Below are positions 121 to 39,882 of a stretch of 47,691 nt of DNA, piece after piece. The position numbers and the translations under genes are program-made. How positions within the stretch are numbered: position 1 is the stretch's first letter; every line of letters starts with the position of its first letter. The notes beneath the pieces are model-generated. The model ran no database searches and was not told the origin of the DNA. It saw only the letters and a program-made list of their open reading frames with translations. Origin of the DNA: an uncultured Kiritimatiellota bacterium (GTDB lineage Bacteria > Verrucomicrobiota > Kiritimatiellia > RFP12 > DVOR01); the NCBI GenBank assembly GCA_944389545.1, contig CALXMT010000018.1, forward strand, positions 1-47,691, read 5' to 3'.

Positions 121-450
121 CCTTGAAACTGTGCAGTGAACCGCAAAGACGCAAGGGGGGCGCGAACCGCTTCGGGCTCCATCGGGCGCTCTGCGGCTTC
201 GCCGCTGACCGCGCCCGCCGCCCATCGTCTTCGCGCTTGGGCCGTCTTTCAAGTGTACTTGGCGCAGGAAAGTGGGGCGCGGGAGGGCGCACGACCGTGC
301 GCCCGGCGTTAGCGCCCCACCTTTCCTGCAAGCGTTGCGTCTTTGCGGTTTTATTTTGCACGGAGCCTCACCCGTCGCCCGCTTGCCGGGCGCTCCGTTC
401 TCCGTTCTCTGTTCTCTGTTCTCCGTTCTCCGGGGCGGCATAAGCCGCCC
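121..450 (+). repeat. Intergenic module mosaic with two structured hairpins
   Basis: No gene is seen here. In order it holds: the word CGCAAAGACGCAAGG; a nested hairpin (outer arms 183-189/211-217, inner GCGGC/GCCGC at 193-197/201-205); a large hairpin (GCAGGAAAG 264-272 with CTTTCCTGC 321-329, TGGGGCGC 273-280 with GCGCCCCA 312-319, inner GGGCGCAC/GTGCGCCC); the word TTGCGTCTTTGCGG; a run of TTCTCCG/TTCTCTG heptamers; and the palindrome GGGGCGGC-ATAA-GCCGCCCC. The large hairpin recurs at 38218-38283, and the first one recurs inverted at 23437-23471. Confidence 0.85.
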
Positions 451-1937: not shown

Positions 1938-2510
1938 GCAGAACTGTGAGGCCTCCGCGTTCTAAAAGGGAGAACGGAGAACGGAAAATGGAGAACGGAC
2001 GCCCCTGCGGGGCGACGGGTGAGGCGCTGTGTAAAAAGGGCGGCTCACCGCCCCGTCCTATTGGTCCTATACGTCCTATTGGTCCTACTACGCTGCCTCG
2101 GTGCGCATTTCACGAAAGCCACAGAAACGCAAGGGACTGGGCACTTCACCGTTCGGCCCTGCGGGCCTCTCTACCGTGCCCATCCCTTGCGTTTCTAGTG
2201 TTTCGAGGGAAGCGCCCATAGGCGACGCGGTAGGACAGGGGTCGGCGTTGCCGCCCGGCTGATTGGCTGGATTGGCTGATTGGCTGATTGGCTGATTGGT
2301 TGATTGGCTGATTGGCTGATTGGCTGATTGGCTGATTAGAATCTTGGTGGGGCGTTGTCCCACGCCCGTGCCTTCTCCGTCGCGCGCTTGCCGCGCGCTC
2401 TGTTTCCTGTGGTCGTGGAAGGTTTGTCCCTTCGGGCCTGCACGCTCCGTTCTCTGTTCTCTGGGGCGGCGCCGCCGCCCCTCTTGTTCTTCGGGCGCGC
2501 CAGCGCCCCT
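1938..2510. repeat. Intergenic module mosaic with the longest CTGATTGG array
   Basis: A gene-free gap of about 600 bp. In order it contains GGAGAAC heptamers; the palindrome GCCCC-TGC-GGGGC; a TCCTATTGG-type 9-mer run (about 2066-2094); a nested palindrome with a perfect 13-bp outer stem (AGAAACGCAAGGG 2123-2135, CCCTTGCGTTTCT 2184-2196) and inner GGGCAC/GTGCCC and GGCCC/GGGCC arms; about ten CTGATTGG 8-mers (2263-2336); a GTGGGGCG/TGTCCCAC hairpin; GCGCGC palindromes; the conserved GTGGAAGGTTTG module; TTCTCTG heptamers; and two GC palindromes ending at the T-run before the next promoter. Confidence 0.85.
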
Positions 2511-2513
2511 TTT

Positions 2514-2522
2514 TGCTATACT
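2514..2522 (+). promoter_or_regulatory. Extended -10 promoter TGCTATACT
   Basis: TGC plus TATACT lies directly after a GC palindrome and a T-run, with no recognisable -35. The predicted start near 2529 leaves a short leader carrying AAAGGAG, 6 nt before ATG 2542. The same box precedes most genes in the window. Confidence 0.7.
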
Positions 2523-2541
2523 GACGGCAAAGGAGCGTGAC

Positions 2542-3888
2542 ATGGAACAGAAAATCGCACAGAGTGTCTATGACTTCCGTAAATTACGGGAGGATGGTTG
2601 TATCTATGTGGACAAGACCGCGTTGCTCTATTCCCTCGTCACGCGATATGGCGATGCCTTCTACTTCATCTCGCGGCCGGAGCATTTCGGTAAAACGCTC
2701 ATGCTCTCGACCTTGGAGTGTCTCTTTCGCGGCGAGCGCGAACTCTTCAAAGGCCTTGCCATCGACAAGATGGACTATGTTTGGGAGTCCTATCCTATAC
2801 TCCATTTCAACTTCTCGGGCCTCAATGTGGAGACCCTGGAGGTATTCGAGATTGATTTCCGTAACTACGTCAAGAAGGTTTTGATTGAGGCTGGTTGCAA
2901 GTGGGATGACACAATTTCTTCCCATGCCAACTTTGATAGAGCCATTTACTTCCTTAAGCAGAACCGCGGCAAAAGTGTCGTCATTCTTATCGACGACTAC
3001 GATGCGCCGACCAATGCCGCGTTGAATGATGTTGCCAAGGCCAAGGCAATCCGTTCTGAGGTCATTAATTTCTGTGGCGAAATTAAGAACAACGTCAGCG
3101 ATATCCACTTCTCAATGATGACCGGCGTCACGCGTTACGTGCCAGACTCTATCTTTTCAACGTTGAACAATCTCATCGACCTGACAATGGCCAGCCGCTA
3201 CGCCACGCTGTTGGGTTACACGGAAGAGGAGCTGGAGTCCAACTTTGACGAGGATATGCGTGAGCACGCCCAGGTGATGGGCCTTCCCTATGAGGATTAC
3301 CGCGCGGAACTCCGCCGGTGGTACAACGGTTATCGTTTCTCTCCGGATAGCGAGACGTGCGTCTACAACCCCGTTGCCATTGCCAAGACCCTTGGGCCGA
3401 AGGAGCCAACCTTTGCGCCCACGTGGTCGAAGACCGGCCGCCCCTCCGCGTTGATCAACTACCTCACCATGCACGATATTGAAACGCGCGACTACGAGAA
3501 TGTTTGCGGCATCTCGGAGAGCGCCCTCGACGTCTGCGATTTGGAGGCCATTAAGCCGGTCTCGATGCTCTATCAAAACGGCTACCTTACCATCAAAGAC
3601 TTCAAGTACTCCTTCTTTACTTTGGGCATTCCCAACGAAGAGGTGCGCCTCGACCTCAACTCTCTCCTCCTCCAATATGCAGCTAGGAGGGGCGGCTGAC
3701 GCCACCCCAGAGAATGGAGAACGGAGAAGAGAGAACGGAACGCCCCTGCGGGGCGATGGGCGAAGCCTAAGGCCAACGGCTACGCCGAGCCCTATCGCGC
3801 CTCCGGCAAGCCGATTCACCTCATCGGACTCAACTTCAAGTCCGCGAATCACTCCCTCTCCGACACCGTGGTCGAAACCTTGGTGTAA
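2542..3888 (+). pseudogene. Broken AAA-ATPase-like/PD-(D/E)XK gene (copy 1 of 3)
   Basis: The first 385 codons (2542-3699) align closely with the intact copy at 5102-6673, starting from the same MEQKIAQ start and an almost identical promoter and ribosome-binding site. The reading frame then runs into an intergenic-type module (3689-3768) and stops. Beyond it, 3769-3888 encodes the last 39 residues of the same protein in frame (KANGYAEPYR to VVETLV, then stop). About 100 residues, including the nuclease core with its GRAD and ELK motifs, are missing. The ATPase signatures have also drifted: RPEHFGKT instead of RPRRFGKS, and IDDYD instead of IDEYD. The family pairs an AAA-like domain (PF09820 type) with a C-terminal nuclease-like domain (PF08011 type) and its function is unknown. 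A truncated ATPase-only product may still be made. Confidence 0.85.
3689..3768 (+). repeat. Module mosaic replacing the middle of the AAA/PD-(D/E)XK gene
   Basis: This segment has the standard gene-end architecture: palindrome GGGGCGGC-TGAC-GCCACCCC, GGAGAACGG heptamers, then GCCCC-TGC-GGGGC and GCGATGGGCGAAGCC. It joins codon GCA-GC of the upstream half to AAG-GCC-AAC of the downstream half. It is the only intergenic-type module in the window that clearly interrupts a recognisable gene. Confidence 0.85.
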
Positions 3889-5101: not shown

Positions 5102-6673
5102 ATGGAACAGAAAATCGCACAGGGTGTCTATGACTTCCGCATCATGCGGGAGGATGGCTACGTCTATGTGGACAAGACGGACTTGCTGGGCGGCTTGGTC
5201 ACCGGCGGGCGCGACGCCTTCTATTTTATCTCCCGCCCGCGGCGTTTCGGCAAATCATTGATGCTCTCCACGCTGGAGTATATCTTCCGTGGCAAGCGCG
5301 AGCTCTTTAAGGGTCTCGCCATCGATAAGCTGGACTACGACTGGGCGGAGTATCCCATCCTGCACTTCTCCTTCGGCGGCATCAAGGCCAAAACATTGGA
5401 GGCCTTTGAGAGAAATTTCTGCCTCCGTGTCAAGAAAGTGTTGACTGAGGCAAAATGTACCTGGGACGAGGCGGCGCCCCCCGATGCGAACTTTAATCAA
5501 GCCATCACAGACCTTGCCAAACAGGCAGGCAAGCCCGTGGTCATCCTAATCGATGAGTATGACGCGCCGGTGGGTCACGCGTTGTCCGACATCAAGCTTG
5601 CCTCGGACATCAGGCAGGAACTCTCTGATTTCTATATCCAAATCAAGGAATGTGCCTCGGACGTCCGGTTCTTGATGATGACAGGGGTGACGCGCTTCAC
5701 GCAACTCTCCGTCTTCTCGGCGCTCAACAACCTCAACGATCTGACGATGGATTCGCGCTACGCCACGCTGTTGGGTTACACGGAGGAGGAATTGGAGGCC
5801 AACTTCAGTCCCTCCCTGCACGCGCACGCCGACATCATGGGACTTGCTTACGAGGACTATCGCGCGGAGCTCCGCCGGTGGTACAACGGCTACCGTTTCG
5901 CCAGAAACAGTGCGGTGCGGGTCTACAACCCCGTTGCCATCGCCAAGACCATTGGGCCGAAGGAGCCCACCTTTGTGCCCACGTGGTCGAAAACCGGTCG
6001 CTCCTCCGCGTTGATCAACTACCTCACCATGCACGATATTGAAACGCGCGACTACGAGAATGTTTGCGGCGTCTCGGAGAGCGCCCTCGATGTCTGCGCT
6101 TTGGAGGCCATTAAGCCGGTTTCGATGCTTTATCAAAGCGGCTACCTCACCATCAAGGACTTTAAGAATCCTTACTTCACGCTTGGTGTGCCCAACGAAG
6201 AGGTGCGCATCGACCTCAACTCCCTCCTCCTCCAATATGCAGCCAAAGAAGTGGACGGCGAGACCCTCCGCGATGCCGCCGGTTTCGCGTTGCAGAAAGC
6301 AGACTTCGAGGCCTTCTTCGCCCAGGTCCGCGCGCTCTTCGCCCACTTGCCTTACGGCTCGACTGAGAACCGCGTGCCGGAGGCCGCCTACCAGCGCATC
6401 CTCTATGTGCTTCTCTCCGCGTGTCCTTTTCGCGTGACGGCGGAAGACCGCCAAGCCCAGGGCCGCGCGGATATCGTGGTCGAAAGCGACGAGCGCGTCT
6501 TCGTCCTCGAGCTCAAGGTCGACAAGACCGCCGCCGAGGCCCTCGCCCAAATCAAAGCCAACGGCTATGCCGAGCCCTATCGCGCCCTGGGCAAGCCCAT
6601 TCACCTCATCGGCCTCAATTTCAAGTCCGAGAACCATTCGCTTGACGACGCCGTGGTCGAAACTTTGCCCTGA
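5102..6673 (+). CDS. AAA-ATPase-like/PD-(D/E)XK protein (copy 2, intact)
   Basis: A 523-residue soluble protein with an N-terminal AAA-ATPase-like domain and a C-terminal PD-(D/E)XK nuclease-like domain. The P-loop-like RPRRFGKS is at residues 45-52 and a Walker B-like LIDEYD ends at 154. The nuclease core has Asp457 (GRAD) and Glu470-x-Lys472 (ELK). A helical middle part holds conserved FTLGVPNEEVR-type sequence. Start ATG 5102 has GGAG 7 nt upstream. Known family members are abundant in Bacteroidota and related gut bacteria, often in many paralogues; their role is unestablished, and defence or mobile-element functions have been suggested only by domain logic. It is monocistronic, bounded by module mosaics, and the intact counterpart of the broken gene at 2542. 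Confidence 0.85.
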   Translation: MEQKIAQGVYDFRIMREDGYVYVDKTDLLGGLVTGGRDAFYFISRPRRFGKSLMLSTLEYIFRGKRELFKGLAIDKLDYDWAEYPILHFSFGGIKAKTLEAFERNFCLRVKKVLTEAKCTWDEAAPPDANFNQAITDLAKQAGKPVVILIDEYDAPVGHALSDIKLASDIRQELSDFYIQIKECASDVRFLMMTGVTRFTQLSVFSALNNLNDLTMDSRYATLLGYTEEELEANFSPSLHAHADIMGLAYEDYRAELRRWYNGYRFARNSAVRVYNPVAIAKTIGPKEPTFVPTWSKTGRSSALINYLTMHDIETRDYENVCGVSESALDVCALEAIKPVSMLYQSGYLTIKDFKNPYFTLGVPNEEVRIDLNSLLLQYAAKEVDGETLRDAAGFALQKADFEAFFAQVRALFAHLPYGSTENRVPEAAYQRILYVLLSACPFRVTAEDRQAQGRADIVVESDERVFVLELKVDKTAAEALAQIKANGYAEPYRALGKPIHLIGLNFKSENHSLDDAVVETLP

Positions 6674-7081
6674 GTTTCCACGAAGACACGAAGGAACGCA
6701 AGGGCCTGGGCACTTCACCGTTCGGCGCGTTGCGCCTCACTACCGTGCCCATCCCTTGCGTTTCTGTGTTTTCGAGGGAAGCGCCCAGAGGCGATACGGT
6801 AGGACAGGGGGTGGCGTTACCGCTCGGCTGATTGGCTGGATTAGCTGATTAGCTGATTGGCTGATTAGAATCTTGGTGGGGCTTCGCCCCACGCCCCGAC
6901 GAGGACAGCACAGGAGATTCAGGAGATTCAGGAGATTCAGGAGATTCAGGAGGCGCCCCTGTGGGGCGACGGATAAGACGTTTTGCACAACGGCACCGCC
7001 CGTCGCCCCGCAGGGGCGCTCTGTTCACTGTTCACTGTTCTCCGTTCTCCGTTCTCCGGGGCGCGCTTGCGCGCCCCATTA
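6674..7081. repeat. Intergenic module mosaic with nested palindrome
   Basis: No gene. After the stop codon it shows TTTCCACGAAGACACGAAGG, a nested palindrome (AACGCAAGGG 6695-6704 with CCCTTGCGTT 6753-6762, inner GGCGC-GTT-GCGCC), CTGATTGG/CTGATTAG words, the hairpin GTGGGGC-TTC-GCCCCAC, four GGAGATTCA 9-mers, TTCACTG then TTCTCCG heptamers, and palindrome GGGGCGCGC-TT-GCGCGCCCC at 7058-7077. Confidence 0.85.
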
Positions 7082-12830: not shown

Positions 12831-13791
12831 CCTCCCCCCCAACCCCCGCCGCGCCGACTGGCGCTGGCAGCTCCGCCACCGCCTCACCGCGCGCGACCTC
12901 GGCCGCGACGAACTCCCCGCCTGGCCCTGCCTCGTCACCCCCTACTACGCCTCCCTCGCCGACCTCTCCGACCCCGCCGACCCCATCGCCCGCCAGTTCC
13001 TCCCCGACCCCCGCGAGCTCCTCCCCGACGGCTTCGGCCCCGACCCCTTCGGCGAAGACGGCCCCGCCGCCATCGCACCCGGCATCAAGCAGCGTTTCCC
13101 CGACCGCATCCTCGCCCAGGTCAACCTCACCTGCGCCGCCAACTGCCGCCACTGCACCCGCCGCGGACTCCTCGGCCGCGCCCACGCCGCCGCCCTCCCC
13201 GACCTCCTCGCCGCCCTCAAAGCCCGCCCCCGCGTCCGCGAAGTCCTCCTCTCCGGCGGCGACCCCCTCCTCCTCCCCGACGACGCCCTCCTCGCCTGGG
13301 TCGACGCCCTCGCCGACCTCCCCCAGCTCGACGCCATCCGCCTCTGCACTCGCACCCCCGTCACCCTCCCCATGCGCTGGACCCTCCCCCTCGTCCGCCG
13401 CCTCGCCCGCTCCAAACGCCTCTGGGTCCAGACCCAATTCAACCACCCTCGCGAGCTCACCTCCCAATCCATCGCCGCCTGCGCCCGCCTCATCGACCAT
13501 GGCATCCCCGTCTCCAACCAAAGCGTCCTCCTCAAAGGCATCAACGACGACCCCGCCGTCATGGCCGAACTCTGCGCCAAACTCCAACGCGCCCGCGTCC
13601 GCCCCTACTACATCTTCCTCTGCGACCCCATCGCCGGCATCGGCCACTTCCGCACCGATCCCGCCGCCGCCCCCGCCCTCCGCGAAAGCCTCCTCTCCAA
13701 CCTCGGCGGCCTCGCCTGCCCCCGCCTCGTCGCCGACCTCCCTGGGGCCCCCCACAAACAAGACATCTTGGGGCGCAACGCGCCCCGCTGA
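12814..13791 (+). CDS. KamA/EpmB-family radical SAM lysine aminomutase
   Basis: A 325-residue enzyme of the lysine 2,3-aminomutase family. The iron-sulfur cluster cysteines are Cys107, Cys111 and Cys114 (CAANCRHC). The SAM-binding GGD is at 148-150, followed by RTPVTLPMR, QFNHPREL, SNQSVLLKGIND and RPYYIFLCDP. Lys315 in PGAPHK is the likely PLP lysine. The length and ending resemble EpmB, which converts lysine for modification of elongation factor P, but no epmA or efp is in the window, so lysine aminomutase is equally possible. The start ATG 12814 lies within the previous gene (17-nt overlap), tying it to the NYN operon. The last residues LGRNAPR and the stop codon come from intergenic module sequence (a GGGGCGC palindrome followed by CTGATTGG). 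Confidence 0.85.
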   Translation: MPSTADLPPNPRRADWRWQLRHRLTARDLGRDELPAWPCLVTPYYASLADLSDPADPIARQFLPDPRELLPDGFGPDPFGEDGPAAIAPGIKQRFPDRILAQVNLTCAANCRHCTRRGLLGRAHAAALPDLLAALKARPRVREVLLSGGDPLLLPDDALLAWVDALADLPQLDAIRLCTRTPVTLPMRWTLPLVRRLARSKRLWVQTQFNHPRELTSQSIAACARLIDHGIPVSNQSVLLKGINDDPAVMAELCAKLQRARVRPYYIFLCDPIAGIGHFRTDPAAAPALRESLLSNLGGLACPRLVADLPGAPHKQDILGRNAPR

Positions 13792-14121
13792 TTGGCTGAT
13801 TAGCTGATTGGCTGATTGGTGTTCTTGGTGGGGCTCCGCCCCACGTCCCCGCTGTTCTCCATCGCCCGTAGGGGCGCTCCTGTATCTCCTGAATCTCCTG
13901 CATCTCCTGTGGAGCGTGCTCATGGCACGTCGCAGACGTGCCGGGGGTGCAGGGGTAAGTGGAAGCTTGGAAGTTTAGGGGCTTGGAGGCTTGGCTTTTT
14001 TCAGTGCGCTTCACCCGTCGCCCGCTTGTCGGGCGTTCTGTTCTCCGTGGCCGTGGAAGGTTTGCGGCTTCGCCGCTGCACGCTCTGTTCTCCGTTCTCC
14101 GGGGCACCGCAGGTGCCCTTT
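13770..14121. repeat. Intergenic module mosaic
   Basis: It begins inside the end of the KamA-like gene with palindrome GGGGCGC-AAC-GCGCCCC and runs through CTGATTGG/CTGATTAG words, hairpin GTGGGGC-TCC-GCCCCAC, CCTGAATCT 9-mers, palindrome GGCACGTC-GCA-GACGTGCC, CTTGGAAG/TTTAGGGG 8-mers, the GTGGAAGGTTTG module with hairpin GCGGC-TTC-GCCGC, TTCTCCG heptamers and palindrome GGGCACC-GCA-GGTGCCC. No gene is seen. Confidence 0.85.
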
Positions 14122-14130
14122 TGCTATACT
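14122..14130 (+). promoter_or_regulatory. Extended -10 promoter TGCTATACT
   Basis: It follows the GGGCACC/GGTGCCC palindrome and a T-run. The predicted start near 14137 coincides with the AAGGAG site 7 nt before ATG 14150, leaving a very short leader. Confidence 0.65.
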
Positions 14131-14149
14131 ATGGGCAAGGAGTTCGGCT

Positions 14150-15724
14150 ATGGAAGAAGAGAAAATCGCGCAGGGGACTTACGACTTCCGCGTCATGCGG
14201 GAGGATGGTTATCGCTACGTGGACAAAACTGCGTTGCTCTATCCGCTTGTCACGCGCGGGAGAGATTCCTTCTTCTTCATCTCGCGTCCTCGGCGTTTCG
14301 GCAAGTCGCTGATGCTCTCCACGCTGGAGTGTCTCTTCCGCGGCGAGCGCGAACTCTTCAAGGGCCTCGCCATTGACCAGATGGACTACGACTGGGAATC
14401 TTATCCCATCCTGCAATTTTCTTTCGCTGGCATCAAATCCAAAACGATTGAGGCTTTTGAGGAGGACTTCAAGACGTGCCTTGAGGATGCCTTCACGGTC
14501 GCGAAAGCTCCTTGGAACCCAGACATCTCCCCGGGCGCGAACTTCCGTCGGGCCATTAGGGCCCTTGTAAAGGACACCGGCAAACCCGTGGTCATTCTCA
14601 TTGACGAGTACGACGCGCCGGTGGGGCACGCGCTGGCCGACATCAAGCTTGCCTCTGCCATCCGGCAAGAACTGTCGGACTTCTACATCCAAATCAAGAA
14701 CAATGTCGGTGCCATCCGATTCATGATGATGACGGGCGTCACGCGCTTCACTCAGCTCTCCGTCTTCTCGGCGCTCAACAACCTCACCGACCTGACGATG
14801 GATGAGCGCTACGCCACGCTCCTTGGTTACACCGATGAGGAGCTGGGCGCCAACTTCAGCAAGACGTTGCACCGCCATGCCGAAGTTATGGGCCTTTCCT
14901 ACGAGGATTACCGCGAAAAGCTTCGCTGGTGGTACAACGGTTACCGTTTCTCTCCGGATTGCGAGGAGAAAGTCTACAATCCCTTTGCCATTGGGCAAAC
15001 CCTCGGCGCATTGAAGCGTCGCTTCATCGGCACCTGGATTTCCACCGGCCAGACTTCCACCGTCATCAACTACTTCACAAACAACCAACTCGTCGAGCAA
15101 GACTATGAGAACGTTGAGGATATCTCCGAGGAGGATTTGAACGTTTGTGGGCTGGAGAACATCCGTCCCATCGCTATGCTCTACCAAGGCGGTTACCTCA
15201 CTATCAAAGATTGCCAAGACGGCGTCTTCACCCTCGGCATTCCGGACGAGGAGGTTCGCCGCGCCCTCAACTCCCAGCTCGTTCAGAAATTCGCCGAGAA
15301 AAATGGTGACCAGTACCGCAACGCTACTTGCCGTGCCTTGAAGCAAGCCGACTTCGCCACCTTCTTTGGCAACCTCTCCGACCTCTACGCACATCTCACT
15401 TACGGCCCCAAAGAAGAACGCGTGCAGGAATTCTCCTTCCAGCGCATCCTCTACGTCCTGCTGACCTCCAGTGGCTTCTTCCGCGTGACCGCCGAGGACC
15501 GCCAGTCCCACGGCCGCGCGGACCTCGTCGCCGAGACCCCCGAACGCGTCTTTGTCTTCGAGTTGAAGGTTGACGGTACGCCCCAGGAGGCCCTTGCTCA
15601 AATCAAGGAAAAGGGTTACGCCGAGCCCTATCGGCACAGCGGCAAGGAGGTCCATCTTATTGGTCTCTCCTTCGACGGCGAAACCCGCCGCCTCACCGGC
15701 ACCGCAACCGAGCCTTTGGAATAA
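14150..15724 (+). CDS. AAA-ATPase-like/PD-(D/E)XK protein (copy 3)
   Basis: A 524-residue paralogue of the protein at 5102, with the same start region (KIAQGTYDFRVMREDGY), P-loop-like RPRRFGKS, Walker B-like LIDEYDAPVGHA and a nuclease core ending in GRADLVAETPERVFVFELK, so both domains look intact. It is more diverged in the middle (TSTVINYFTNNQLVEQDYENV) than copies 1 and 2 are from each other, which indicates an older duplication. ATG 14150 has AAGGAG at 14137-14142. It is monocistronic and ends in a convergent gap that holds an array of short palindromes. Function is unknown; see the copy at 5102. Confidence 0.85.
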   Translation: MEEEKIAQGTYDFRVMREDGYRYVDKTALLYPLVTRGRDSFFFISRPRRFGKSLMLSTLECLFRGERELFKGLAIDQMDYDWESYPILQFSFAGIKSKTIEAFEEDFKTCLEDAFTVAKAPWNPDISPGANFRRAIRALVKDTGKPVVILIDEYDAPVGHALADIKLASAIRQELSDFYIQIKNNVGAIRFMMMTGVTRFTQLSVFSALNNLTDLTMDERYATLLGYTDEELGANFSKTLHRHAEVMGLSYEDYREKLRWWYNGYRFSPDCEEKVYNPFAIGQTLGALKRRFIGTWISTGQTSTVINYFTNNQLVEQDYENVEDISEEDLNVCGLENIRPIAMLYQGGYLTIKDCQDGVFTLGIPDEEVRRALNSQLVQKFAEKNGDQYRNATCRALKQADFATFFGNLSDLYAHLTYGPKEERVQEFSFQRILYVLLTSSGFFRVTAEDRQSHGRADLVAETPERVFVFELKVDGTPQEALAQIKEKGYAEPYRHSGKEVHLIGLSFDGETRRLTGTATEPLE

Positions 15725-30120: not shown

Positions 30121-30947
30121 TCGACCTGCACACCCACTCCACCTCCAGCGACGGCAGCCTGTCGCCCCGCGAACTCGCCCGCGCCGGCAAGGCCGCCGGG
30201 CTCGACGTCATGGCCCTCACCGACCACGACTGCGCCAAAGGCGTCGACGACTTCCTCGACGAGTGCGCCGCCATCGGCCTCACCGGCGTGCCCGGCATCG
30301 AGCTCTCCGCCGAGGTCCCCAACGGACAGCTCCACCTCGTCGGCCTCGCCTTTGACCCGCACGACCTCGCCCTCACCGCCAAGTTCGCCGCTCTCCTTGA
30401 TGGCCGCGCCGCCCGCAACCGCGCCATCCTCCAAGCCTTCCAAGACAACGCCATCCCCCTCTCCTGGGACGAGGTCCGCGCCTTCGCCGGCGACGAACTC
30501 GTCAGCCGCGTCCACTTCGCACAGGCCCTCGTCGCCAAAGGCCTCGCCGCCGACGTGAAGGACGCCTTCGCCCGTTTCCTCGGCAAGGGCGCCCTCTGCT
30601 ATCGCAACCGCTTCCGCTACGCCCCCGCCGACTGCATCGCCATGGTTCATGCCGCCGGCGGCGTCGCCGTCATGGCCCACCCCCTCAGCCTCGAACCCGA
30701 CCTCGCGGCCCTCGAGCCCAAAATCGCCGCCCTCCGCGACCTCGGCCTCGACGCGATGGAGTGCTTCTACTCCACCTATGATGTCGAGACCACCGTCGCT
30801 CTCCTGCGCATCGCCAAACGCCTTGGCCTCGTCCCCTCCGTCGCCAGCGACTTCCACGGCGCCCCCAAGCCCGACATCTTCCTCGGCCGCCTCCCCGTCT
30901 CCCCCGACACCGAATCCCGCCTCCGCACCCTCCTCCGCCTCCGCTAA
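30117..30947 (+). CDS. PHP-domain phosphoesterase (RNase AM/YciV-like)
   Basis: A 276-residue PHP protein with the metal motifs DLHTHSTSSDG, ALTDHDCAKG, PGIELSAE, AHPLSL and SDFHG. This is the arrangement of the YciV/TrpH group, which hydrolyses nucleoside 3',5'-bisphosphates and 5' ends of short RNAs. It is coupled by ATGA to the acetyltransferase. After its stop codon the phrase CCTCCACGAAGACAC starts the next module mosaic. Confidence 0.88.
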   Translation: MIDLHTHSTSSDGSLSPRELARAGKAAGLDVMALTDHDCAKGVDDFLDECAAIGLTGVPGIELSAEVPNGQLHLVGLAFDPHDLALTAKFAALLDGRAARNRAILQAFQDNAIPLSWDEVRAFAGDELVSRVHFAQALVAKGLAADVKDAFARFLGKGALCYRNRFRYAPADCIAMVHAAGGVAVMAHPLSLEPDLAALEPKIAALRDLGLDAMECFYSTYDVETTVALLRIAKRLGLVPSVASDFHGAPKPDIFLGRLPVSPDTESRLRTLLRLR

Positions 30948-31294
30948 TCGTCCTCCACGAAGACACAAAGGAACGCAAGGGCCTGGGCACTTCACCGTTC
31001 GGCCCTGCGGGCCTCACTACCGTGCCCATCCCTTGCGTTTCTAGTGTTTTCGGGAAGCAGCATCCGTCGCCTTGGGCACGTCGCAGACGTGCCTGCGGGT
31101 GCAGGGGAGATTGGAAGCTTGGAAGTTTAGAGGTTTGGAGGCTTGGCTTTCTCGGTGGGGCTCCGCCCCACACCCCTACAATTCCTCCGTCGCCCGTTTA
31201 CCGGGCGCTCTGTTCTCCGTGGCCGTGGAAGGTTTGCGGCTTCGCCGCTGCACGCTCTGTTCTCCGTTCTCCGGGGCGGCTTTGCCGCCCCTTT
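30948..31294. repeat. Intergenic module mosaic with nested palindrome
   Basis: No gene is seen. It holds the CCACGAAGACACAAAGG words, nested palindrome (AACGCAAGGG 30972-30981, CCCTTGCGTT 31030-31039, inner GGCCC-TGC-GGGCC), GGCACGTC-GCA-GACGTGCC, CTTGGAAG 8-mers, GTGGGGC-TCC-GCCCCAC, GCCCG-TTTAC-CGGGC, GTGGAAGGTTTG with GCGGC-TTC-GCCGC, TTCTCCG heptamers and GGGGCGGC-TTT-GCCGCCCC. Confidence 0.85.
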
Positions 31295-37730: not shown

Positions 37731-37812
37731 TGGGCCCGGAGGGGGTCGAACCCTCACGCCGTGAAGCACAGGAACCTAAATCCTGCGTGTCTGCCAATTC
37801 CACCACGAGCCC
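37731..37812 (-). tRNA. tRNA-Leu (anticodon TAG)
   Basis: Class II cloverleaf on the minus strand. Acceptor GGGCTCG pairs with CGGGCCC, the D-arm carries GGAATTGGCAGAC, anticodon stem CAGGA/TCCTG encloses TTTAGGT (anticodon TAG), there is a long variable arm, and the T-arm is GAGGG/CCCTC around TTCGACC. Discriminator A is at 37731 and CCA is not encoded. Confidence 0.95.
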
Positions 37813-37849: not shown

Positions 37850-38310
37850 GCAAAAGGGCGCCTGCGGCGCCCCGGAGAACGGAAAACGGAAAACGGAGAA
37901 CGGACGCCCCTGCGGGGCGACGGATGGAGCGGTGTGTAAGTGTAAAAAGGGCGGCCACGCCGCCCCGTCCTATTGGTCCTATACGTCCTATTGGTCCTAC
38001 CGCGTAGCTTGGGGATGTTTTCCGCGAAGACGCCAGTGCGCGCGAAGTCAGATGGGCTAACGCCGGTCGCTTTGCGGGCTAAACGCCCGCTGATCGCTCC
38101 CTCCCGCCCATCGGCTTCGCGCTTGAAGAAGAGAAGTAGGGGTGTGGGGCGAAGCCCCTCCCCGAAAACCAAACTTCCAAACCTCCAAGCTTCCAAACTT
38201 CCTCATCTCCTTTTGGCGCAGGAAAGTGGGGCACGGGAGGGCGTACGGACGTGCGCCCGGCGTTAGTGCCCCATCTTTCCTGCAAGCGTTGCGTCTTTGC
38301 GGTCCTTTCT
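37850..38310. repeat. Intergenic module mosaic with structured hairpins
   Basis: No gene is seen. It holds palindrome GGGCGCC-TGC-GGCGCCC, GGAAAAC/GGAGAAC heptamers, GCCCC-TGC-GGGGC, TCCTATTGG 9-mers, a variant of the 183-217 hairpin (GCGGGC-TAAAC-GCCCGC, about 38075-38092), GTGGGGC-GAA-GCCCC, CCAAACTTC 8-mers, and the second copy of the large hairpin at 38218-38283 followed by GTTGCGTCTTTGCGG. Confidence 0.85.
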
Positions 38311-38338
38311 CCGGGCACTATGGGGCGTAAACGGAATA

Positions 38339-38418: not shown

Positions 38419-39882
38419 ATGGACGACCGACAACTCTCCCTCGAAAGCCGACTGCTTCAGTTGCGCGACGAGATCAAAGCCCTTGAGAAGTCCGACGCCG
38501 ATCCGGCGACGCTCAAGGCCACGCTCCGCAGGCTCTGCGATGAGCGCTCCCGCCTGGAAGATGAACTCATCAACCTGGTGGTCTCCCCCGACAATGACAC
38601 CCGCGCCGGCGCACGAGACGGTTTGCGCGAAGGTTTGCTTGCCGCCGTCCAGGCGCTTGCCGAAACGATGCGACAGACTTCCGAGCGCAAAGCCGCCGAA
38701 GCAAAGCCCGCGAAACAGGAGGGTCTCCTGGCGCGGGCTTTTTCGTGGGTGACGCAGCGTTCCTGGGCCTCTTGGGGCACTTGCCTGCTGCTGGTCTACT
38801 TCCTGTTGGTGGCGATGTCCGCGCTGGGGTCCGGCTTCGAGGGGCTCTTTGGCGGTCCTGAGCGCGCGAAGGAATTCTTCGAGACTTACGCGGGCAATCC
38901 CTTTGTGGGCCTGGTGGCCGGCCTGTTGGTGACGGCCATCATCCAGAGCAGCTCGGTGACGACCTCGGTCATCGTGGGTCTCTGCGTGGGCGGTCTGCCC
39001 ATCACGGTGGCCATCCCGATGATCATGGGCGCGAACATCGGCACCTCGGTGACGAACACGTTGGTCTCGCTGGGCCACATCGGTCACCGCCGCGAGTTCC
39101 GTCGTGCCTTCGCCGCCGCCACGATCCACGACTTCTTCAACATCACGGCGGTCTGCCTCTTCCTGCCTACGGAGATGGCCTTCGGTTGGCTGGAGAAGCT
39201 CTCCGGGGCGATTTCGGGCGTGCTCTACGGCTCGGCCGGCTTCAACATGGATAGCATCAACTTCGTCGCGGCGGCCACGAAGCCCGTCGAAGGTCTGCTC
39301 TATGGCCTCTTCATGAAGATTCCCGGCACGACGATGGCCAACGTGATCTACGTCATCTTCGGTCTGGTGGTGATCTTCGCGGCCATCCTCCTGTTGGGGC
39401 AACTGCTGCGTCTGCTCTTCACGGGGCGCGCGGAGCGCGTCTTCCGCACGGCGGTGGGCAAGAACCCCGTGGCGGCCATCGGCAGCGGCTTCGCCATCAC
39501 CGCGTTGGTCCAGAGCAGCAGCACGACGACCTCGCTCATCGTGCCGTTGGCCGGCGCGGGTCTGATGAAGTTGAAGCAGGCCTTCCCCTTCACGCTCGGC
39601 GCGAACATCGGCACGTGCGTGACGGCGCTCCTGGCCGCGTTGGCCTTCACCGGCAACGGCGCGCAGTTTGGTCTGCAGATTGCCTTGGTGCACCTGCTCT
39701 TCAACACCTGCGGCGTCATCCTGATCTACGGCCTGCCGCCTCTGCGGCGTATTCCGCTGGTCTGCGCTTCGTCGTTGGCGAAGCTGGCCGCGGATTGCCG
39801 TCCGATGGCGATTGTCTACATCGTGGGGGTCTTCTTCCTGCTCCCCATCGTCTGCCTCTGCGTCTACTCTTGGCTGAGGTAA
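38419..39882 (+). CDS. Na/phosphate cotransporter (NptA-like)
   Basis: A 487-residue membrane protein. An N-terminal cytoplasmic coiled coil (residues 1-100, LLQLRDEIKALEKSDAD) precedes about eight membrane segments. Two inverted repeats carry the family's QSSS motif: IIQSSSVTTSVIVGL and LVQSSSTTTSLIVPL, each followed by an ANIGT motif (GANIGTSVTN, GANIGTCVTA). This is the SLC34/NptA fold that imports phosphate with sodium. The usual C-terminal PhoU-like domain is absent and the coiled coil lies at the other end, which is unusual. AAAGGAA precedes ATG 38419. The direct repeats upstream suggest control by phosphate starvation. Confidence 0.9.
   Translation: MDDRQLSLESRLLQLRDEIKALEKSDADPATLKATLRRLCDERSRLEDELINLVVSPDNDTRAGARDGLREGLLAAVQALAETMRQTSERKAAEAKPAKQEGLLARAFSWVTQRSWASWGTCLLLVYFLLVAMSALGSGFEGLFGGPERAKEFFETYAGNPFVGLVAGLLVTAIIQSSSVTTSVIVGLCVGGLPITVAIPMIMGANIGTSVTNTLVSLGHIGHRREFRRAFAAATIHDFFNITAVCLFLPTEMAFGWLEKLSGAISGVLYGSAGFNMDSINFVAAATKPVEGLLYGLFMKIPGTTMANVIYVIFGLVVIFAAILLLGQLLRLLFTGRAERVFRTAVGKNPVAAIGSGFAITALVQSSSTTTSLIVPLAGAGLMKLKQAFPFTLGANIGTCVTALLAALAFTGNGAQFGLQIALVHLLFNTCGVILIYGLPPLRRIPLVCASSLAKLAADCRPMAIVYIVGVFFLLPIVCLCVYSWLR

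Follow-up and report, generated by a model that had tools for sequence, protein, structure and literature searches.

Hairpins on a Candidatus Spyradenecus contig as end modules of a MITE whose arms bear signs of templated correction

The window analyzed here, a stretch of 47,691 nucleotides from an uncultured Kiritimatiellota bacterium (draft genome G000), begins with a tRNA-Phe gene (1-76) and carries a tRNA-Leu gene at 37731-37812, both identified with ARAGORN. Each tRNA gene is followed by a 66-nt hairpin and then by a plus-strand gene, encoding a beta-CASP nuclease at 531 and a Na/Pi cotransporter at 38419. A first-pass annotation of this DNA had described the hairpins as two copies in which a base pair was exchanged by matching changes in both arms, and direct reading of the sequence bears this out. 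Copy 2 reads TGGGGCAC / GTGCCCCA and GGGCGTAC / GTGCGCCC, as stated there, and differs from copy 1 further in its loop (GGAC instead of GACC) and in a bulged nucleotide on the 3' side (T instead of C). The predicted folding energies are -50.5 kcal/mol for copy 1 and -47.0 kcal/mol for copy 2, with z scores of -6.7 and -6.8, and none of 200 shuffled sequences equaled either. The conserved unit exceeds the hairpin as first described: in copy 1 it spans approximately 259-348, or 141-348 if the left module is included (Table 1).

Table 1. Positions of the hairpin elements and their parts in the window.
Feature	Position	Strand	Remarks
Copy 1, left subterminal block CCGCAAAGACGCAA	141-154	+	Inverted copy of 335-348
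Copy 1, left hairpin module	160-236	+	Hybrid of type C (5' part) and type A (3' end); z -3.5
Copy 1, hairpin, module type B	264-329	+	Oriented inward from the right end of the element (minus strand)
Copy 1 hairpin, outer 5' part: GCAGGAAAG, then TGGGGCGC	264-272, 273-280	+	
Copy 1 hairpin, 5' middle: GGGA, then GGGCGCAC	281-284, 285-292	+	
Copy 1 hairpin, apex: loop GACC, then GTGCGCCC	293-296, 297-304	+	
Copy 1 hairpin, 3' part: GGCGTTA, GCGCCCCA, C, CTTTCCTGC	305-311, 312-319, 320, 321-329	+	
Copy 1, right subterminal block TTGCGTCTTTGCGG	335-348	+	Outer TIR no longer recognizable
Copy 2, left subterminal block CCGCGAAGACGCC	38022-38034	+	
Copy 2, left hairpin module, type A	38040-38122	+	z -5.7
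Copy 2, variable filler between both hairpin modules	38123-38213	+	Short heptamer-type repeats
Copy 2, hairpin, module type B with compensated pair	38218-38283	+	
Copy 2, right subterminal block TTGCGTCTTTGCGG	38289-38302	+	
Copy 2, degenerate right TIR TTTCTCCGGGCACTATGG	38306-38323	+	2 mismatches; identified by position, alone not significant
Type G hairpin	2124-2195	+	Same architecture; strong covariation across copies
Type G hairpin	6693-6764	+	Same-strand gene ends at 6673; its stop codon lies about 20 bp before the hairpin
Type G hairpin	30970-31041	+	Same-strand gene ends at 30947; its stop codon lies about 22 bp before the hairpin

The hairpin of type B is a highly repeated sequence. 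BLAST detected at least 40 scored copies of the unit in the 2.53 Mb of G000, nearly all of them over approximately 259-345, and pattern searches of the same genome recovered additional full and partial copies. Elsewhere in the genus, the hairpin unit gave 26 matches in the sister genome G010, one in G001 and none in 14 other members, and when GTDB-species contigs were scanned for an exact pattern, only CALXOF01 (uncultured Kiritimatiellaeota) and Candidatus Spyradenecus faecavium DVOR01 matched. The terminal repeat CAATACTGTCCGGGGAAA that delimits the intact elements follows a similar distribution, with 142 matches in G000, 82 in G010 and 0-9 in the remaining genus members. Across the order its pattern is present in seven of 162 genomes, and six of these seven belong to Candidatus Spyradenecus; outside the genus it was found in one of 145 genomes of the order, as a lone match without a visible element that we judge to be due to chance. 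Two copies in G000 (contig C1, at ~5.5 and ~7.9 kb) lie ~2.5 kb apart and are identical in element and flank, which suggests a local duplication.

The flanks of the copies revealed a larger element with a common layout. A full element consists of the TIR CAATACTGTCCGGGGAAA, the inner block CCGCAAAGACGC, a hairpin, a variable filler, an inverted second hairpin and the same blocks in reverse, so that intact copies bear CAATACTGTCCGGGGAAA at both termini. Intact copies measure ~274 bp and most elements ~250-460 bp; they are non-coding and contain no transposase gene. As read from the metagenome assemblies, 9-bp target duplications matching in at least eight of nine positions flank 11 of 59 two-ended elements, compared with 0.26 expected, and neighboring widths have no such excess. 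This excess of 9-bp flanking repeats indicates that the elements arose by transposition. G010 lacks both window copies: at the orthologous sites the neighboring tRNA and gene have been conserved (96% and 98% identity for the genes), and other repeats occupy the gap; both copies are dispensable at their sites. These absences emerged from targeted orthologue searches, whereas a general search for empty sites among the copy loci yielded no clean junction. The distribution among genus members is patchy, with many copies in the carriers. Overall, there is strong support for the hairpin family of Candidatus Spyradenecus being a MITE with hairpin end-modules, even though the loss of clear outer TIRs from the window copies counts against this assignment. 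One element of 49 bp (L126, 1398-1446) comprises scarcely more than both terminal repeats.

The hairpins at the element ends come in at least seven module types, A, B, C, D (G000), E, F (G016) and G, which share one architecture of an outer stem, an asymmetric internal loop and an inner stem. Each end carries one hairpin and the two modules stand in inverted orientation. On its 5' side the internal loop reads TAACGCC or TCCACC/TCCAT, and on its 3' side CTCCC or CTACC in most types. In a hand alignment of the six types A-F the distance between the starts of the inner block and of the internal loop is 35-38 nt, and conservation within a type ends at the base of the hairpin. The modules are paired in varying ways, as A+B, C+B and D+C, and the left end of copy 1 is a hybrid. 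The GTTA in the loop resembles the core of integron attC sites by eye only.

A candidate for the enzyme that mobilizes these elements was found in G010, which harbors a truncated IS4-family transposase (L195; DDE_Tnp_1 4.7e-14, NF033592 3.6e-25). This remnant ends in the same TIR as the MITE. In G011 and G001, contigs break off at the same IS end, and a sibling IS is present in G015. A target duplication of 9 bp also agrees with IS4-type elements. Against the assignment, the draft genome G000 yielded no DDE_Tnp_1 transposase, and no autonomous element was recovered that is intact and has both ends. Most likely, an IS4-family transposase moves the MITEs in trans. The IS ends that we observed carry no hairpin; transposition by the IS4-family IS therefore need not involve the hairpin. 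A contig-end sequence (L131) had also been considered as the autonomous IS and was rejected as part of a different dispersed repeat of ~700 bp. That second repeat (L147, 940-1643) has several TAATCGCG motifs near its ends and lies at many contig breaks of G000.

The position of both hairpins upstream of plus-strand genes, to which the first-pass annotation had drawn attention, is confirmed for the window and does not hold for the family, since the ~60 copies are randomly oriented. According to a home-made gene caller, type B copies are nearly all intergenic with random orientation to the neighboring genes. A cis-regulatory leader RNA, for which a fixed orientation upstream of genes would be expected, was rejected because of this random orientation. 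Rfam at the gathering score reported only the two tRNAs in the window; E-value searches with an A+B element returned no match and with a G016 element a single one, to a plant miRNA family and far below the gathering score. Several type G copies lie close to a same-strand stop codon, two of them in the window (Table 1), and from this position a role of type G in the 3' UTR is possible.

Comparison of the arms across copies supports the claim that compensatory change is in excess. In 63 copies of type B the stem and the internal loop are almost fixed, the loop being the most conserved stretch, and the tetraloop and the linkers vary. Seven Watson-Crick pairs were doubly changed, a modest excess over the 2.1 obtained by shuffling, and four of 2000 shuffles reached seven, although such tests overstate significance because the copies are related. 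In the more diverged type G the signal is very strong and compensation prevails: both sides were changed in 27 cells, compared with 6.6 after shuffling (0 of 500 shuffles, with the same overstatement), double changes affected 10 of 23 pairs, and 96.0% of cells were paired, compared with 91.3% in shuffled data. This signal is also far above the slid controls; covariation was scored by shuffle and slide controls, and arm correction can mimic it. From type G and the conserved internal loop we infer that the fold is probably under selection. On the other hand, arm changes that are independent of each other, which the first-pass annotation had regarded as evidence against its interpretation, predominate in type B, where 98 of ~105 changed cells are one-sided and seven double. 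Single changes of the G-U type and of the A-C type are balanced in type B (~14 and 17 sites), and thus no sense strand of an RNA is indicated.

Direct evidence for a second source of matched changes comes from one insertion shared by G000 (L015) and G010 (L095) within ~3 kb of 96.7% identity. Over 443 aligned columns the two differ at nine positions inside the hairpin and at two elsewhere, and all nine hairpin differences make the usually imperfect hairpin perfectly palindromic, its arms being 30 nt long as read from the sequence. The G010 form is the derived one because the G000 form matches the family. In its outer patch the sequence follows the 3' arm and in its inner patch the 5' arm, and patches taken from different arms require either that the template was switched twice or that an extruded hairpin was repaired. 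A second perfect palindrome is present in G000 (L061); as both were read from metagenome assemblies, palindrome misassembly is possible. One arm would thus serve as template for the correction of the other, by template switching or by repair of the extruded hairpin, and selection for the fold would probably act in addition. With moderate confidence, we propose that templated correction together with probable structural selection keeps the arms complementary. Matched changes in two arms are often taken to prove that an RNA structure is under selection. The orthologous copy, with both arms rewritten to match in one cluster, implies that such changes by themselves are no proof of a functional RNA. 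The many hairpin copies and orthologous pairs of this family allow templated correction to be measured against selection as a source of compensation.

Taken together, we consider it probable (roughly 0.8) that type B is the right-end module of a MITE, that a DDE transposase of the IS4 family mobilizes this MITE in trans and that the hairpin arms are shaped by templated correction and probable selection on the fold. The first-pass annotation had offered a structured RNA or the correction of one palindrome arm by the other as explanations, and the correction part is the one that the L015/L095 pair upholds. An independent structured RNA is not supported, as the hairpin belongs to a transposon that has TIRs and is flanked by 9-bp TSDs, is missing in G010 at both window sites, keeps no fixed gene orientation, has balanced G-U and A-C changes and has no Rfam match at the gathering score. 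A version in which the hairpins act within transcripts as 3' UTR stabilizers, terminators or leaders, the compensation reflects selection on the RNA fold and the transposon merely spread them, is possible but rather unlikely. The double changes and the pairing level of type G, the type G copies abutting same-strand stop codons and the strongly conserved internal loops agree with it, whereas the lack of any gene-orientation or G-U strand preference in type B, the two inverted modules of each intact element, the Rfam result and the absence of the window copies from G010 do not.

Alternatively, the family could be a young functionless repeat in ordinary decay, whose apparent compensation stems from recombined diverged sub-copies or from shared ancestry. 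The common mixing of modules, of which the left end of copy 1 is an example, and the prevalence of one-sided changes in type B would be expected in this case. We find this explanation doubtful, given that the internal loop is the most conserved part, that shuffling so rarely reproduced the compensation in type B (a test weakened by the relatedness of the copies) and that the type G signal far exceeds both kinds of control. The scattering of the hairpins between genes, their conserved 5' block and their frequent pairing in inverted orientation are also reminiscent of REP/BIME palindromes, which have a conserved head motif and are mobilized by a RAYT (Y1 transposase). This origin is very improbable and was rejected: Y1_Tnp (PF01797) was not found in the drafts of the carriers G000, G010 and G001, with a carrier draft being 96% complete, and TIRs with 9-bp TSDs are what DDE transposition leaves behind. 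Returning to the MITE with hairpin end-modules, a more general idea is that ends with interchangeable structured hairpins, each with a conserved asymmetric internal loop and set at a nearly constant distance from the terminal repeat, define a transposon superfamily, in which a transposase or host factor would recognize folded ssDNA or RNA and arm correction would preserve the folding; we put this forward very tentatively.

Among the repeats of pneumococci, RUP is mobilized in trans, and BOX is built from modules and forms stem-loops. The pneumococcal BOX/RUP repeats (PMC3049150) are likewise small interspersed bacterial repeats, from which the Spyradenecus MITE differs in sequence, host and the inverted two-hairpin layout. 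Bacterial MITEs derived from insertion sequences are short, non-coding, intergenic elements with TIRs, target duplications and stem-loops that an IS mobilizes in trans (PMC10969869). The Spyradenecus family resembles them in size, TIRs, target duplications, intergenic sites and stem-loops and differs in that its ends bear swappable hairpins of one architecture and differing sequence at a near-fixed distance from the inner block; the terms 'hairpin', 'IS4' and 'modular' are absent from that review. With an IS4-family remnant of the genus it has the terminal repeat in common; it differs from IS4-family insertion sequences in lacking a transposase gene and in carrying hairpins, which are absent from the observed IS ends. 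REP/BIME elements (PMC3733652) are also palindromes that are scattered and flanked by a conserved tag, in contrast to which the Spyradenecus MITE has TIRs and 9-bp TSDs and no RAYT was found in its carrier drafts. Template-switch mutations at hairpins produce multi-base changes in one event that make or restore a perfect stem (PMC8794818). The L015/L095 difference fits this mechanism, the present case being a bacterial transposon hairpin in which both arms were changed in different patches. Non-exhaustive literature searches on MITEs and the genus name returned no description of a Spyradenecus hairpin MITE family. It appears to be a modular MITE family that has not been described before, from a gut lineage that has received little study.

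Further repeats were noted in the window. Tandem octamer-type arrays of the GCTGATTG, GAGAACGG, CTTCCAAG and TCCTATTG families, at 2259-2339, 13779-13835 and elsewhere, occupy many intergenic regions and the middles of elements. Three paralogous AAA-ATPase_like genes at 2320-3699, 5102-6673 and 13991-15724, two of which also contain PDDEXK_9, form the long repeat families D4-D6.
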